Assembly (NCBI GenBank): GCA_029560585.1
Contig: JAKQKQ010000133.1
Coordinates: 1-64,000 of the forward strand
Source: Verrucomicrobiota bacterium
Lineage (GTDB): Bacteria > Verrucomicrobiota > Verrucomicrobiia > JADLBR01
Length of the DNA stretch: 64,000 bases
Reading direction: 5' to 3'
The translations under genes were made by a program, and so were the position numbers. The notes below the pieces were generated by a model, which saw only the letters and a program-made list of their open reading frames with translations, ran no database searches and had not been told where the DNA came from. Below are positions 2,431 through 64,000 of the stretch, piece after piece; the stretch's first letter is position 1; every line of letters starts with the position of its first letter.

Positions 2431-3552
2431 ATGACAACCATATCCTCATCCCGACTCGCCCGCCAGACCGCCGAGCGCCTGATCGGCTCACGTGCCGCGC
2501 TTCAGCGCACACCGGCCCTGCTGGGCTTCGATGGCTTCGTCGACCGAATCTACCACGCCGTGGACTCGCGGAAGTCGGCCACCGAGTACATCCCGGTGAA
2601 GACGCTCAAGGCGTTCGGCCACCGCATCGCCGGGGCCGCCGGCAAGAGCCTGAATGTCGAGATCGTCCTGCAGCAGACAAAGCTGGGGGGACAGGGTCCG
2701 ATCATGGCCTTCGCGATGTCGTCGCTCGGCGTGCCGGTGACATACTGCGGGATGACGGGCTACCCCAAGGTGCATCCGGTGTTCGGGGAGTTCGCCAAGC
2801 GGGCCAACGTCCTGGGCTTCGCGGACCCCGCGGAGACCGACGCGTACGAGTTTGCCGACGGTAAGATCCTCGTCGGCCGCCACGCCACGGTGGCGGAGGT
2901 GACCTTCGACAACATCCGCAAGCGGATCGGGGACACGACCTGGCGCAAGCTCTGGGACGCGGCCCGCTTTGTCGGCATCGGCAACTGGACGATGCTGCCG
3001 CACATGACCTCGGTCTGGAAGAAGATCCAGGCCGAGACCGCGGGCAAGGAGCCGGCCTTCCGGAAAATGATGTTCTTCGATCTTGCCGACCCCGAGAAGC
3101 GCGCGAAGGCCGATATCGCCGCGGCCCTCAAGACGCTGATGAAGTTCCAGGAGCAAAACGACGTCATCCTCGGGCTCAACGAGCGGGAGAGCCACCAGAT
3201 CGCCGGAGTGCTGGGCATCAAGGCGGGCGGCTCAAACGAGAAGCAGATCACCGACCTGGCGGCCAGGATCCGCGAGAAGATGAAGCTGCATTGCGTCGTC
3301 ATCCACCCGGTGAAATTCGCCGCGGCGGCGGACGCGAAGGGCGCGTATTCGGTGGTCGGGCCGTTCACGCCGAAGCCGAAGATCTCGACGGGGGCCGGGG
3401 ACCACTTCAACGCCGGTTTCTGCATCGGTTGCCTGCTGGGCTGCGAACTGCCGCAGTCATTGCAGCTCGGTGTGGCGACGAGCGGTTTCTACGTGCGGCA
3501 GGCCGCGAGCCCGAGCCGCGAACAATTGGTCCGCTTCCTGCAGACGCTCTGA
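2431..3552 (+). CDS. PfkB-family carbohydrate kinase
   Basis: A 373-residue cytoplasmic kinase of the ribokinase/PfkB superfamily, expected to phosphorylate a sugar or sugar-like alcohol with ATP. The N-terminus carries the substrate-side GFDGFVD segment. The C-terminal signature STGAGDHFNAGF contains the catalytic Asp in the GAGDxF anion hole. Length is slightly above the usual 300-340. The ATG follows a purine-rich leader with only a weak Shine-Dalgarno; the frame stays open upstream but adds no domain sequence. The substrate cannot be read from the sequence. A REP-like repeat follows the stop. Confidence 0.85.
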   Translation: MTTISSSRLARQTAERLIGSRAALQRTPALLGFDGFVDRIYHAVDSRKSATEYIPVKTLKAFGHRIAGAAGKSLNVEIVLQQTKLGGQGPIMAFAMSSLGVPVTYCGMTGYPKVHPVFGEFAKRANVLGFADPAETDAYEFADGKILVGRHATVAEVTFDNIRKRIGDTTWRKLWDAARFVGIGNWTMLPHMTSVWKKIQAETAGKEPAFRKMMFFDLADPEKRAKADIAAALKTLMKFQEQNDVILGLNERESHQIAGVLGIKAGGSNEKQITDLAARIREKMKLHCVVIHPVKFAAAADAKGAYSVVGPFTPKPKISTGAGDHFNAGFCIGCLLGCELPQSLQLGVATSGFYVRQAASPSREQLVRFLQTL

Positions 3553-4682: not shown

Positions 4683-5375
4683 ATGCGTTTTCTCCTCGGG
4701 CTCGCGCTGTCGCTGGCTCTGGCGTGCCCCACTTCCTGGGGGCAGGCCGAGGAGCATATCGTCGTGAGCGGCGGGCCCGCCCTTCGAAAATGGGAGAAGT
4801 CCAAGGAGCGCACCCACGATGTCTTCTGGGGCAATTTCGTCGAATCGGCCCTGATCCGCCTCGGCGAACTGAAATCCAAGGCCAAACCGGGCGACCAGTT
4901 CGGGTGGCTGGTCTTCAAACCCAGCTATGTCTCGCGCTCCCGCGAGGACCGGCAGGATCTCCTCTCTATCGTCCAGCAGAAGGCCAACGCGATCGGCGTG
5001 GCGCTCTACTGGTTCGACACGACCGACCAGCTCATCAACTATATCAACCGGGGCAAGGATAGGTCACAGTTGCCCGTGGGAAGCCTCGACTACTTCGGCC
5101 ACAGCAACAAGGTCAATTGGATGTTCGACTACAGCAACGACCTCGACGGGTGCTCGACTGCTTACTTCCACACCCGCGATCTTCCGCGACTTGAGAGCAG
5201 CGCCTTCGCACCGGATGCCGAGGCCAAGAGTTGGGGATGCCACTCCGGCGAGTACTACTCGCAGAAGTTTTTCGACCTGACCGGCGTCAAGATGTGGGGT
5301 GCCGTCGGAAAGACCGACTACTCGCGCGGCGGCCTGCCGGTCCTTTCGACCGAGGGAGGACGGTGGACCCAGTGA
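4683..5375 (+). CDS. Exported protein with possible caspase-like His/Cys pair
   Basis: 230 residues with a clear Sec signal peptide (MRFLLGLALSLALACPTSWG, cleavage near residue 21). I do not recognise a named family. Two short conserved-looking blocks stand out: LDYFGHSNKVNW at about residue 138 and SWGCHSGEYYSQKF at about residue 182. A His at the end of one strand and a Cys at the end of the next, each followed by small residues, resembles the dyad layout of caspase-fold (CHAT/C14) proteins, but this is inference. The stop overlaps the start of the next gene (GTGA), so the two are probably translated together. Confidence 0.6.
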   Translation: MRFLLGLALSLALACPTSWGQAEEHIVVSGGPALRKWEKSKERTHDVFWGNFVESALIRLGELKSKAKPGDQFGWLVFKPSYVSRSREDRQDLLSIVQQKANAIGVALYWFDTTDQLINYINRGKDRSQLPVGSLDYFGHSNKVNWMFDYSNDLDGCSTAYFHTRDLPRLESSAFAPDAEAKSWGCHSGEYYSQKFFDLTGVKMWGAVGKTDYSRGGLPVLSTEGGRWTQ

Positions 5376-60165: not shown

Positions 60166-62451
60166 TTACGGCAACGGCGGCAGCTTCGCGCTGTAGTGCA
60201 CCGCGCGGTGGCGGTTGTCGTCGAACGCGAAATGCAGCCATTGCCGATCCTTGCTGACGAAACCGTCGGGATAATTGATGCGGCCCTTGGGTCCGTCGCA
60301 TGACTCTTTGTGGAGCACGCGCTGGTAGGGCCACGTCCTCATGCCATCGAAACTGATCCAGAGGGCGAGCGGGCTGCGGTGCCTCGAATTGGGATTGTGC
60401 AGCATCGCCACCGCATCGCCACCGAGCGGATAGAGCGTCGCCTTGCTCCCCGGATTGGGCACTTGCGTGATGGACGCAAACTCGGGCCACGTCCTGCCGC
60501 CATCCTTGGATTCCGCGCGATAGAGCACGCCGCCGAGGCCATCCGCGCGGATGATCATGACGATGCGGCCATCGCCAAGCTCCACGATGTTATTCTCCGC
60601 CCATCCGAAGTAGCGGTCGTTCGGCGTCAGGCGGATGTCGCCATGCTCGGCCCAGGTCTTCCCACCATCGCCACTGATGAGAACGCCGTTGCGCGGGTTG
60701 GTGAAATCGCGATCGAGCGGCGCGCGATCCCGCTGGTCGTCCGGCCCGACGTAATGCTGGAAGGGCAGCATGATGCGGCCATCCCGCGTGACGATATGAT
60801 TGCGGATGAACGTGCGCTCCCTGAGCCGACCCGGGACTTCCTGGGGCTTGCCCCAAGTCTTGAACGAATCATCGCTCGTGAGGAACCACGAGCGCCAGTC
60901 ATTCGCCCAGTGCTTGGAGTGCGTGGAGAAGAACAGGGTGCATCGCCCATCGCGCACCATCAGTTCGGTGGGGCCCTGGCCGATGGTCTTGCCCTCGCGC
61001 GGGAAGCCCACGTCAAAACGCTCCAGGGGCGTCCATGTCCTCCCCTGATCGGTGCTGCGCGTGACCCCCGTGTAGTTCAGCGGTGACGGTTCGGTGTCGC
61101 CGCCGGCCAATATGAAGAGGATCCATGTGCCATCGGGCAGCTCGCGCAGGGTGGTGTCGCACACCATGCTGTTCGGCTTCACGCCATCGTAAGGGACGCT
61201 GCTGCGGTCCTGTTTCGCGTCCCCGGACGCCCGCGCGGCCCACTTTGCGTCGGGCCGAATGGATTTCGGCACGACGGGCGCGCGCGCCTTGTTGACCAAC
61301 ATGCGCGGCCTCGCACCGGGCGACACAAATTTGCCCGCGCGCACGTCTTCCTCGCGAAATTTCGCCAGCATGATCTCGGCGTCCGTGTGACGGTTCCAGT
61401 CATAGAGGATGTGGATGAGGCCGTCGGGGGCCTGGAGGCCGTCGGGATACGAGACCTCGGCGCGATCATCGAGCAGCAGCCCCCTGCCCCATGTCTTGCC
61501 ATCATCGTCGGAAAGAAATGCCATCATGCTGGAACGCCGTGGCAGGCGCACATCGATCGGGCCGTTCTTCACTAGGAGCAGATTGCCGGAGACCAGGCGC
61601 CGGATGAAGAATCGCGCGCTCACGTTCTGGATCGCGGATGTCTGCGGCTGGCTCCACATCCGCCCCGCGTCCGTGGAAAAACTCTCGCTGATGCCTTTCT
61701 TGGTCCGCGCCAGCATCCAAAGCCTCCCGTCTCGCAACTCGACGATCATGTGTTCGTCGAAGTCCGTCTCGGGAAACGCGACGCCGCCGCGCCGCGTCCA
61801 AGTCTTGCCCTGATCGGTGGACGCGAAGACATTGGCCATGCGGATGGGGTCGAGATCGTGGTGCGCGTCCTTGAGGATGGCGGGCCCGATCCGGTCGCGC
61901 GTCCAGAGGGACACGGGCAGTAGCCAGTCGCCGTTGGACAAGACCGTGGGCTTGTTCAGGGTGCACCCATCGGCAAACCGAACGGGTTTCGACCACGTCG
62001 GCTCATCGGCATCGGGATTCTCGCAAGTCATATACCAGTCGCCGCACCGGCCATCGAAATAGCCGAGGCTCTGATCAAAGAAGAGCCACAGGCGCCCCGA
62101 CGGATCGGTCCAAAGGTTGCCGACGAGGGCGCGGCGCTGCGGCGCGTTTGACGGATCGGTCGGATCGATCACCACCCGGGGTTTCGACCACTTTGCGCCG
62201 CCATCGTCGCTGGTGGCGAGCATGAAGAAACCGTTCGGGCTGTCGCCATTGCCCACCCAGCACGCCCAGAGGCGACCCTTCGGCGTGCGTTCGATGCCAA
62301 TGATCATGTTCCCGACCCGCACCCCATCATCGTACTCGGGTCCGGGCGCGGTGTTTACCACTGGCGGCTCAAGCGCCAAGTCGAGCATCGCCTTGTCCTG
62401 CGCAACGCACGCGGCGGAAACGAGAAATACGAATAGTGGCAATGTTCGCAT
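60166..62451 (-). CDS. Exported tandem BNR-repeat (sialidase-like) protein
   Basis: 761 residues with a signal peptide ([18 protein letters not shown]). At least eight Asp-box motifs S-x-D-x-G-x-x-W or close variants occur ([56 protein letters not shown]), spread over two six-bladed propellers of about 370 residues each. The F/Y-R-I-P motif of true sialidases is not visible, so it may hydrolyse another glycan or only bind. Stands alone on the minus strand, convergent with 58957-59889. Confidence 0.85.
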
Positions 62452-62983
62452 GATCAATCCAAGGGATCGCTGCATCGGCCCAGAATGCCGGTTCGGCGGC
62501 CCGTTGAAAGACATCTCCAGTCGGCCACGACGACACGCGGGGCCCGATTCCGCCGCACCACAAGACGCGGGACATCGTCCAGGATGCTGGACAAGGGCGC
62601 CAGCTTATGGGGTGCGGCGCGCGATCGCGCCGCTCTTGCGAGCCAACGGAATTTTCGAGCTAGATCCCATGCCTGACTTAACGTTTTCATGATAAACAAG
62701 TTACGCTCGTAAATATTTCACGACTTGCGTCTTACTTCAAGTGAAATTCCTCTCGATCTGGTACCCGTTAGCAGCCTTTGGCAATCCGGCTGTCATATTC
62801 TGTCATGGGGCTTGAGGGACGTGGGCACATCCGTTGACGCGCCGCATACCTGTATATGCGCGAGGGTGATTCCAGGGGCTTGTCGCTTCGGGTGGGTGCC
62901 TGAAGGTGCGGCGGGATCTGTTCCCTGCCGTTGCGGCCATCCGCACAAGACCGTGGGAAGCGCGCGCCCGGGAGAATCACCAG
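62452..62983. other. Intergenic region, AT-rich centre
   Basis: No gene I can support. Bases 62640-62760 are AT-rich and contain an imperfect inverted repeat ATTTCAC (62715-62721) / GTGAAAT (62741-62747). This is the junction between chromosomal-type genes and the mobile-type module to the right, but no direct repeat marking an attachment site is visible. Confidence 0.4.
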
Positions 62984-63208
62984 ATGAATGATGGCGACGC
63001 GAGGAAGACGGATGGCGGGGACAATGGGCGCGAGACTGAAACACCCAGTCGGCTGTGGAAGGTGGCGGACGTGGCGGCCTACGCGCGGTGCAGCCCGCGG
63101 ACGGTGGGCAACCTGATGGTCGCCGGGCTTCCATTCATCAAGCTCGGCCATCTGGTGCGCTTCGAGCCGCGCGCAGTGGCGAGGTGGATGGCGGGCGAGC
63201 GCAGGTAG
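62984..63208 (+). CDS. Excisionase-type helix-turn-helix protein (HTH_17)
   Basis: 74 residues. After a polar, disordered N-terminus comes LWKVADVAAYARCSPRTVGNLMVAGLPFIKLGHLVRFEPRAVARWM, the compact MerR-like winged helix of HTH_17/excisionase proteins. GGAG lies 9 bases before the ATG. Such proteins sit in integrated elements and plasmids and control excision or replication genes. It faces a RepA-like ATPase gene across a repeat-rich gap. Confidence 0.8.
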   Translation: MNDGDARKTDGGDNGRETETPSRLWKVADVAAYARCSPRTVGNLMVAGLPFIKLGHLVRFEPRAVARWMAGERR

Positions 63209-63595
63209 CGGGACTGGGGGTGCCCCGGCGTCGCCGCCGTTCATTGCGCAATGAACAGGAATGATACATCCGTACACCCGCCGGCGGACGGCCGATGGAC
63301 GGACCGGGACGCCGGCTGCGCGATAATACGCATGTATGCGCACTCCTGGGCCGGGGGCATCCGCGGATCGGCCGGATGGGCCGCCGGTGCGCCCCGGTGA
63401 GGGCCCGGTGAGGGCCCGGTGGCCCGTCCGTCCAGAAACCCACTTATTGGACAACCTCCCGGGCACGTCGTTCCGTCGTCCATCTTGTCTTGTCCAATAA
63501 CCCCCCTTTAGGGGGGTATTGGACAAGTGGACGACGGGCGTCCAGAAATCCTTGGACAAAGAATTCTTGGACAACGCCGCGGGGGGGGGCGGGCC
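63209..63595. repeat. Iteron-like TTGGACAA repeats and long palindrome
   Basis: TTGGACAA occurs at 63447-63454, 63519-63526, 63552-63559 and 63567-63574, and inverted at 63490-63497. Two of them form the arms of a palindrome at 63489-63527: CTTGTCCAATA, then C6 and G6 blocks around TTTA, then TATTGGACAAG, with one bulged A. GTCGTCCA/TGGACGAC flank that palindrome. CGTCCAGAAA occurs at both 63427 and 63539. The gap holds no gene. Confidence 0.75.
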
Positions 63596-64000
63596 TCAGG
63601 GCCGGGCCCGCGAGTACGAGCCGCGGCCCTCTTTGAGGATGCGGCCCGCCGCCAGGAGCCTCGAGACGATGGCGTAGAAGGTCTGGCGGCTCCTGATGCC
63701 GTGGGCGTCGGCGACGGCCTGGAACCATTGGCCGGCGCTCATGCCGCCCTCGTCGAGCAGTTCGAGCACCTCGTCGGCGGGCACCGACTCGGGCCGGCCG
63801 GCCCTGCGCAGCCTGCCGGCGTCCAGGGCGGCGGCGGGCCGGAACAGGGGGAAGTCCCAGCGGACGACGAATGGCTCCATGTGGGGGAAGTTCCTGAGCG
63901 TGGCCTCGGCGGTGTAGCAATAGGGCTCCTCGTGCGGGGTGAGGGTCAGGATGGAGTCCGGGTCGCGGGCGTAGACCCCGGAGCCGCCGATGCGGTCCAT
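63596..64000 (-). CDS. C-terminal part of RepA-like AAA ATPase (AAA_25), runs off the window
   Basis: 134 residues seen; the N-terminus with Walker motifs lies beyond base 64000. GSGVYARDPDSILTLTPHEE followed by TLRNFPHMEPFVVRWDFPLF is the closing part of RepA/AAA_25 helicase-like ATPases found on plasmids and integrated elements. The last 65 residues (VLELLDEGGMSAGQWFQAVADAHGI through GRILKEGRG) look like a winged helix that could bind DNA. Next to iteron-like repeats and an excisionase-type gene, it suggests a replication module. The Met at the window edge is probably internal. Confidence 0.7.
   Translation of the reverse strand: MDRIGGSGVYARDPDSILTLTPHEEPYCYTAEATLRNFPHMEPFVVRWDFPLFRPAAALDAGRLRRAGRPESVPADEVLELLDEGGMSAGQWFQAVADAHGIRSRQTFYAIVSRLLAAGRILKEGRGSYSRARP

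Follow-up and report, generated by a model that had tools for sequence, protein, structure and literature searches.

The placement of a replication origin directly behind a primase-helicase gene is already known from Streptococcus thermophilus phage Sfi21, the SaPI/PICI islands, and the archaeal plasmid pRN1. The database record of Sfi21 annotates a 302-bp non-coding origin (a 'phage-encoded resistance' element) 3' of the primase-helicase genes, which has been described as activated by infection (PMC6356513); GTAAC repeats of either orientation surround its AT-rich centre. In the pri-rep-ori module of SaPIs and PICIs, the origin lies directly 3' of the replication gene, the iterons form two sets, and the primase is sometimes fused (PMC6092414); as cited in PMC7581432, the C-terminal domain of SaPI Rep recognises the origin. 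Similarly, the SCCmec helicase Cch2 uses its C-terminal domain to bind AAGTG repeats; these belong to a putative origin 3' of the helicase gene, where the primase CCPol-MP also primes (PMC7581432). In pRN1, a stem-loop 3' of the PrimPol-helicase gene is needed for replication and is conserved in structure, not in sequence, and a similar stem-loop has been reported for phage BIP-1/BPP-1 (PMC4234260). The AEP primase of RSF1010 acts at the specific sites ssiA and ssiB (PMC4538821).

The DNA analysed here (the window) comprises the first 64,000 bases of contig C201, which is 80,785 bases long and belongs to a 7.06-Mb assembly of 336 contigs. At its right end, the minus strand carries the C-terminal 134 codons, with the predicted winged-helix tail, of a helicase gene (63596-64000) that as a whole encodes 347 aa and reaches contig position 64639. 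The sequence-only reading of this stretch had recognised a RepA-type ATPase, and this assignment is borne out by the match of the whole gene to AAA_25 (E = 3e-27) and by matches of homologues to RepA structures; the gene also matches PHROG 2597 'DNA primase' (1.4e-52). In sequence searches, a fused homologue of 641 aa from the same genome (L008) retrieved RepA (PDB code: 1g8y) at 1e-3 and PrimPol (PDB code: 6zp9) at 9e-4. The AlphaFold model of another homologue (L052), which has a mean pLDDT of 57.6 with a confident helicase and C-terminus, matches RepA (PDB code: 1nlf) with a Foldseek E of 1e-10 and ends in a C-terminal winged helix (pLDDT about 84-90). As judged from these alignments and this model, the window helicase is of the RSF1010-RepA type and ends in a winged helix.

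Upstream of the helicase gene, beyond the window and in the same direction, follow a PrimPol (archaeo-eukaryotic-type primase) gene (contig 64611-65552), a 141-aa ORF (contig 65549-65974), and a 71-aa HTH gene (contig 65971-66186), all on the minus strand. A second HTH_17 gene lies on the plus strand (contig 66703-66984). With these four genes, the right flank differs from ordinary chromosome. The longer reading frame of the window PrimPol gave no Pfam or PHROG match alone and no PDB match, and was recognised by profile comparison only: it aligns with fused PrimPol domains (hhalign, E = 1.6e-5) over the E-D, SGGKSLHGW, and R motifs. Among the 19 genomes searched, no close relative of it was found beyond its own genome. 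The locus carries the parts of a phage replication module of the PrimPol plus RepA-type (AAA_25) kind, namely a RepA-like helicase domain, an adjacent AEP/PrimPol as a separate gene, and, as in most of the related loci compared, a 3' array with a hairpin. On the other side of the array, an HTH_17/excisionase-like gene (62906-63208, plus strand) is convergent with the helicase gene, and both neighbours are those named earlier. The start of this gene is uncertain, with an in-frame ATG near 62984 as a possible alternative; its match to Pfam HTH_17 (E = 1.7e-4) is worse than the curated cut-off, and it matches PHROG 66 'excisionase and transcriptional regulator' at 6e-7.

Directly 3' of the helicase stop codon, five copies of TTGGACAA lie within 128 bp (63447-63574), and the cluster with its palindromic pair, as previously noticed, is real. 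The first iteron-like site (63447-63454, plus) is outside the hairpin, the second (63490-63497, minus) and the third (63519-63526, plus) form its left and right arms, and the fourth (63552-63559) and fifth (63567-63574) follow on the plus strand. Dinucleotide shuffling leads one to expect 0.76 copies of TTGGACAA per whole 64 kb, compared with nine observed in the window, of which five are clustered; the short repeats are thus clustered beyond chance, as in an iteron origin. Genome-wide, 144 copies occur in 7.06 Mb versus 176 for a reversed-pattern control. The octamer is therefore not common across the genome, which would have spoken against the earlier reading; what stands out is the clustering, not the word as such. 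The hairpin built on the site pair 63490(-)/63519(+) has 17-nt arms that are 94% complementary and a core of CCCCCC-TTTA-GGGGGG (CCCCCCTTTAGGGGGG). By self-match and folding, its pairing extends to 63473-63537 around the apex CCCTTTAGGG, and it is a putative origin initiation hairpin. DNA folding of the 153-nt region gave -41.7 kcal/mol, versus -21.9 +/- 2.9 for shuffled sequences (z = -6.9). No Rfam RNA, tRNA, or att site at a tRNA was found within the 64-kb window. The array and stem-loop together span 63428-63580, from behind the helicase stop codon to before the HTH_17 gene. They probably serve as the replication origin for an integrated element, phage-derived or phage-like, that encodes PrimPol and a RepA-type helicase, and the winged-helix tail of this helicase would bind the origin.

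The extent of this element is less sharply marked. A palindrome, GTTCATTGCGCAATGAAC, is located at 63239-63256; its core, TTCATTGCGCAATGA, occurs in the genome at 63240 and contig 66272 only, and the TTCATTGCGCAATGAA pair flanks a 3.03-kb replication module. A clear att duplication marking the element ends was not found. The region had been read as the replication region of a plasmid or an integrated element, and of these the integrated element stands and the plasmid does not, since the contig continues with other genes on both sides and no relaxase was found among the ORFs scanned. The PICI/SaPI set of int, rpr/stl, xis, pri-rep, ori, and packaging genes in conserved order was not found either, and the helicase type differs too. 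When three integrases encoded elsewhere in this genome served as tblastn queries, no integrase was detected anywhere on the 80.8-kb contig. The ORFs scanned to the right of the window include no packaging gene, and no relaxase or virion gene was seen near the element. Searches with the window helicase gave pattern matches and no relative among viral contigs. A plasmid collection yielded a single distant match. Given the lack of an integrase in this search, the element appears to be decayed or reliant on others, and the best reading is that it is small or decayed.

It is possible, and should be taken seriously as the less probable case, that the window copy is a dead remnant in which an ancestral origin has become functionless. 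This possibility agrees with our main explanation for the family, but not for the window copy. The window copy may be dead or decayed because no integration, transfer, or virion gene is near it, and the replication genes are the only ones present; however, the PrimPol and helicase frames are open with intact catalytic motifs, and the hairpin is well preserved. Under the main explanation, the window copy may still be active at present.

Several other features were observed around the element. A 782-aa protein with BNR/sialidase-like repeats (BNR_2, 6e-63) is encoded beside it on the minus strand (60166-62514). The last 40-140 bp of radC are repeated serially downstream of radC on several contigs (C201 at 69955, 74609, and 75844; L008 at 3205-3282 and 4875-5011; several copies in L108 on C68), a pattern that would fit repeated integration at the 3' end of radC with partial att copies left behind. 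At about 67083-67339, C201 carries a conserved non-coding block of 257 bp that contains the inverted words ACTTTACAC...GTGTAAAGT. Several copies, with 82-94% identity, are present in the genome and a congener, on C170 (L098), C68 (L102), and C234 (L104) and in G001 (L097, L099, and L101), and an HTH_17 gene is nearby in two cases only.

The DNA after the stop codon was compared in 47 related loci, which come from the source genome, from further members of its class, and from phages. These comprise 38 loci from Verrucomicrobiota genomes and nine Bacillota phages and include several near-duplicates. Two class-mates of the source genome have loci that are identical across the compared flank to loci in named Chthoniobacterales/Spartobacteria records (L056 = L064 and L057 = L044), which places the host probably within the Verrucomicrobiota. 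Within 220 bp 3' of the gene, 6-mer clustering exceeded z = 3 in 70% of loci versus 2% of controls (p about 3e-16), and self-complementarity did so in 57% versus 4% (p about 5e-16), the controls being 94 random windows from the same loci. In most 3' flanks, copies of a short word of either orientation surround a hairpin, and different elements use different words. Examples, with further words in other loci, are TTGTCCAA in the window, GTCTCAAA in L050, L051, L042, L058, and L077, AGTCCCAA in L043 and L054, GTGCCAAA in L052, GTGTCAAA in L068, CCGCCA in L049 and L067, CTTTCCAG in L047, TTGTCCCT in Streptococcus phages Javan535 and Javan355, and TTTCATTTC in Bacillus phage BCJA1c. Irrespective of the arm sequence, CCCTTTAGGG is a frequent hairpin apex in Verrucomicrobiota, and the apex word CCTTTAGG was found in 11 of 38 flanks compared with none of 690 control windows. 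An adjacent array was not obvious in L044/L057, L055, L056/L064, L059, L075, and L079, and in L072 and L080 the array is displaced a few hundred bases downstream. Most of the phage loci retrieved have a RusA resolvase among the downstream genes and a DEAD/ResIII-type helicase among the upstream ones.

Two further loci deserve mention in their own right. L010 (C170, 8727-9300) was rejected as an AAA_25 relative, its helicase being DUF3987; this element has its own integrase and an analogous array with the word AATCCCACACAATT and arms of 30 and 24 nt. Since this array lies beside a DUF3987 helicase, the layout is not restricted to AAA_25 helicases. Contig C1 of G341 carries four related primase-helicase genes with identical scores at 4499454, 4535174, 4570894, and 4606614, spaced exactly 35,720 bp apart, which represent either a tandem array of four elements or an assembly artefact.

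The repeat word and the helicase tail change together. In a partial Mantel analysis of the 33 array-bearing loci, some of which are related so that the comparisons are not fully independent, repeat-word similarity correlated with similarity of the winged-helix tail when the core was controlled (r = 0.475, p = 0.0005), but not with the helicase core when the tail was controlled (r = -0.12). The tail-word correlation was 0.28 (p = 0.0005) without near-duplicates and 0.63 (p = 0.0015) in the nine phages alone. For eight residues only, those of the putative recognition helix, which were chosen by eye from the alignment, the partial r was 0.36 (p = 0.0002).

These results bear on an alternative in which the TTGGACAA sites form an operator or att-proximal control region, bound by the HTH_17/excisionase-like protein for transcription or excision. 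Small HTH proteins are frequent binders of short repeats, the HTH_17 gene adjoins the array in convergent orientation, and PHROG 66 takes in both excisionases and regulators. Nevertheless, we regard this alternative as unlikely. The sites are flanked by the ends of two genes, and no promoter-like match was found there; arrays hold the same position after homologous helicase genes with other neighbours, phages included; and no TTGGACAA array accompanies the HTH_17 copies on C170 and at C201:66703. Moreover, the repeat word tracks the helicase tail across loci, and the HTH_17 product, to which the sequence-only reading had tied the sites, is probably not their binder. It is most improbable that the hairpin is a bidirectional terminator with the repeats as by-products of the palindrome, as the convergent gene ends and GC-rich stem might suggest, since the hairpin at 63473-63537 lacks the T run typical of terminators, three of the five sites are outside the stem, the downstream gene is co-directional in L008/L009 and the phages, and the arms vary around a conserved apex.

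A replication origin bound by the helicase tail remains our preferred explanation. The clearest case of a joint change of tail and array is a natural exchange. L091 and L092, which come from different genomes, are 98-100% identical over the tail and array. When either is compared with L093, DNA identity is about 94-98% in the helicase core. It drops to 0.5-0.8 in the final ~300 bp of the gene, is about 0.4 in the array (the first ~150 bp 3'), and past the array is again about 95% or more; the words in the divergent block are TCCCGC in L091/L092 and GCACCAC in L093. Both L092 and L093 are within one complete genome. This is a natural cassette exchange of tail and array. Some covariation is to be expected from linkage alone, since the array directly follows the tail, but linkage would not make the divergent block begin where the winged helix starts and also stop where the array ends.

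A proposed mechanism can be described as follows. The winged-helix tail would recognise TTGGACAA, and several bound copies of the tail may load the hexameric helicase ring at the stem-loop. PrimPol would then start synthesis at or near the apex, using the stem-loop or adjoining melted DNA, after which the host or phage replisome would extend. Sfi21, SaPI Rep, SCCmec Cch2, pRN1, and RSF1010 lend support to these steps by analogy. Tail and array would constitute a matched specificity cassette that differs among elements. The chances seem evenly balanced that, across Verrucomicrobiota PrimPol/RepA-helicase elements and Bacillota phages, winged-helix tail and array form an exchangeable specificity cassette with a near-constant priming apex (CCCTTTAGGG-like in Verrucomicrobiota), that this cassette is swapped for compatibility in one cell, and that a helix-to-word code can be read from it, for example R at residue 3 with GTG-Y-CA versus A or S with GTCTCA.

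The open-access literature yielded no prior description of a RepA-helicase array family in which the array varies, the apex stays nearly constant, and the tail can be exchanged. The position just 3' of the PrimPol/RepA helicase offers a rule for finding the origin in many prophages and integrated elements. It also extends to RepA-type helicases an origin layout that the PICI authors held to be unique to PICIs (PMC6092414). With the natural set of tails and words, including the cassette swap within one genome, both the winged-helix recognition code and the grounds of compatibility can be tested directly.

In comparison with the known systems, Sfi21 shares with the locus studied here a PrimPol gene, a helicase gene, a non-coding origin that directly follows the stop codon, and an inverted repeat; however, it has a D5/DUF5906-type helicase with a Pox_D5 C-terminus, not an AAA_25/RepA one, and its origin has an AT-rich centre instead of a GC-cored hairpin. 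The SaPI/PICI modules also use another helicase type, and an AT-rich region, not a hairpin, separates their iteron sets. SCCmec Cch2/CCPol-MP differs in its helicase and in the use of an A-family polymerase as primase. RSF1010, with RepA helicase, RepB' primase, and RepC initiator, resembles the locus in combining a RepA-type helicase with an AEP primase; its initiator is a separate protein, whereas here this role would fall to the winged helix that forms part of the helicase. The window has the stem-loop of conserved structure 3' of PrimPol-helicase genes that is characteristic of pRN1, but pRN1 has an SF3 helicase, no such iteron array has been reported for it, and its GTG motif is dispensable. 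The module would therefore work like the pRN1 origin without being a member of the pRN1 family, since its helicase is of the RepA/RecA type. Overall, the locus is best described as a replication module of PrimPol and RepA-type helicase together with a putative origin, which would work like the origins of SaPI and Sfi21; it is neither a PICI nor a plasmid.
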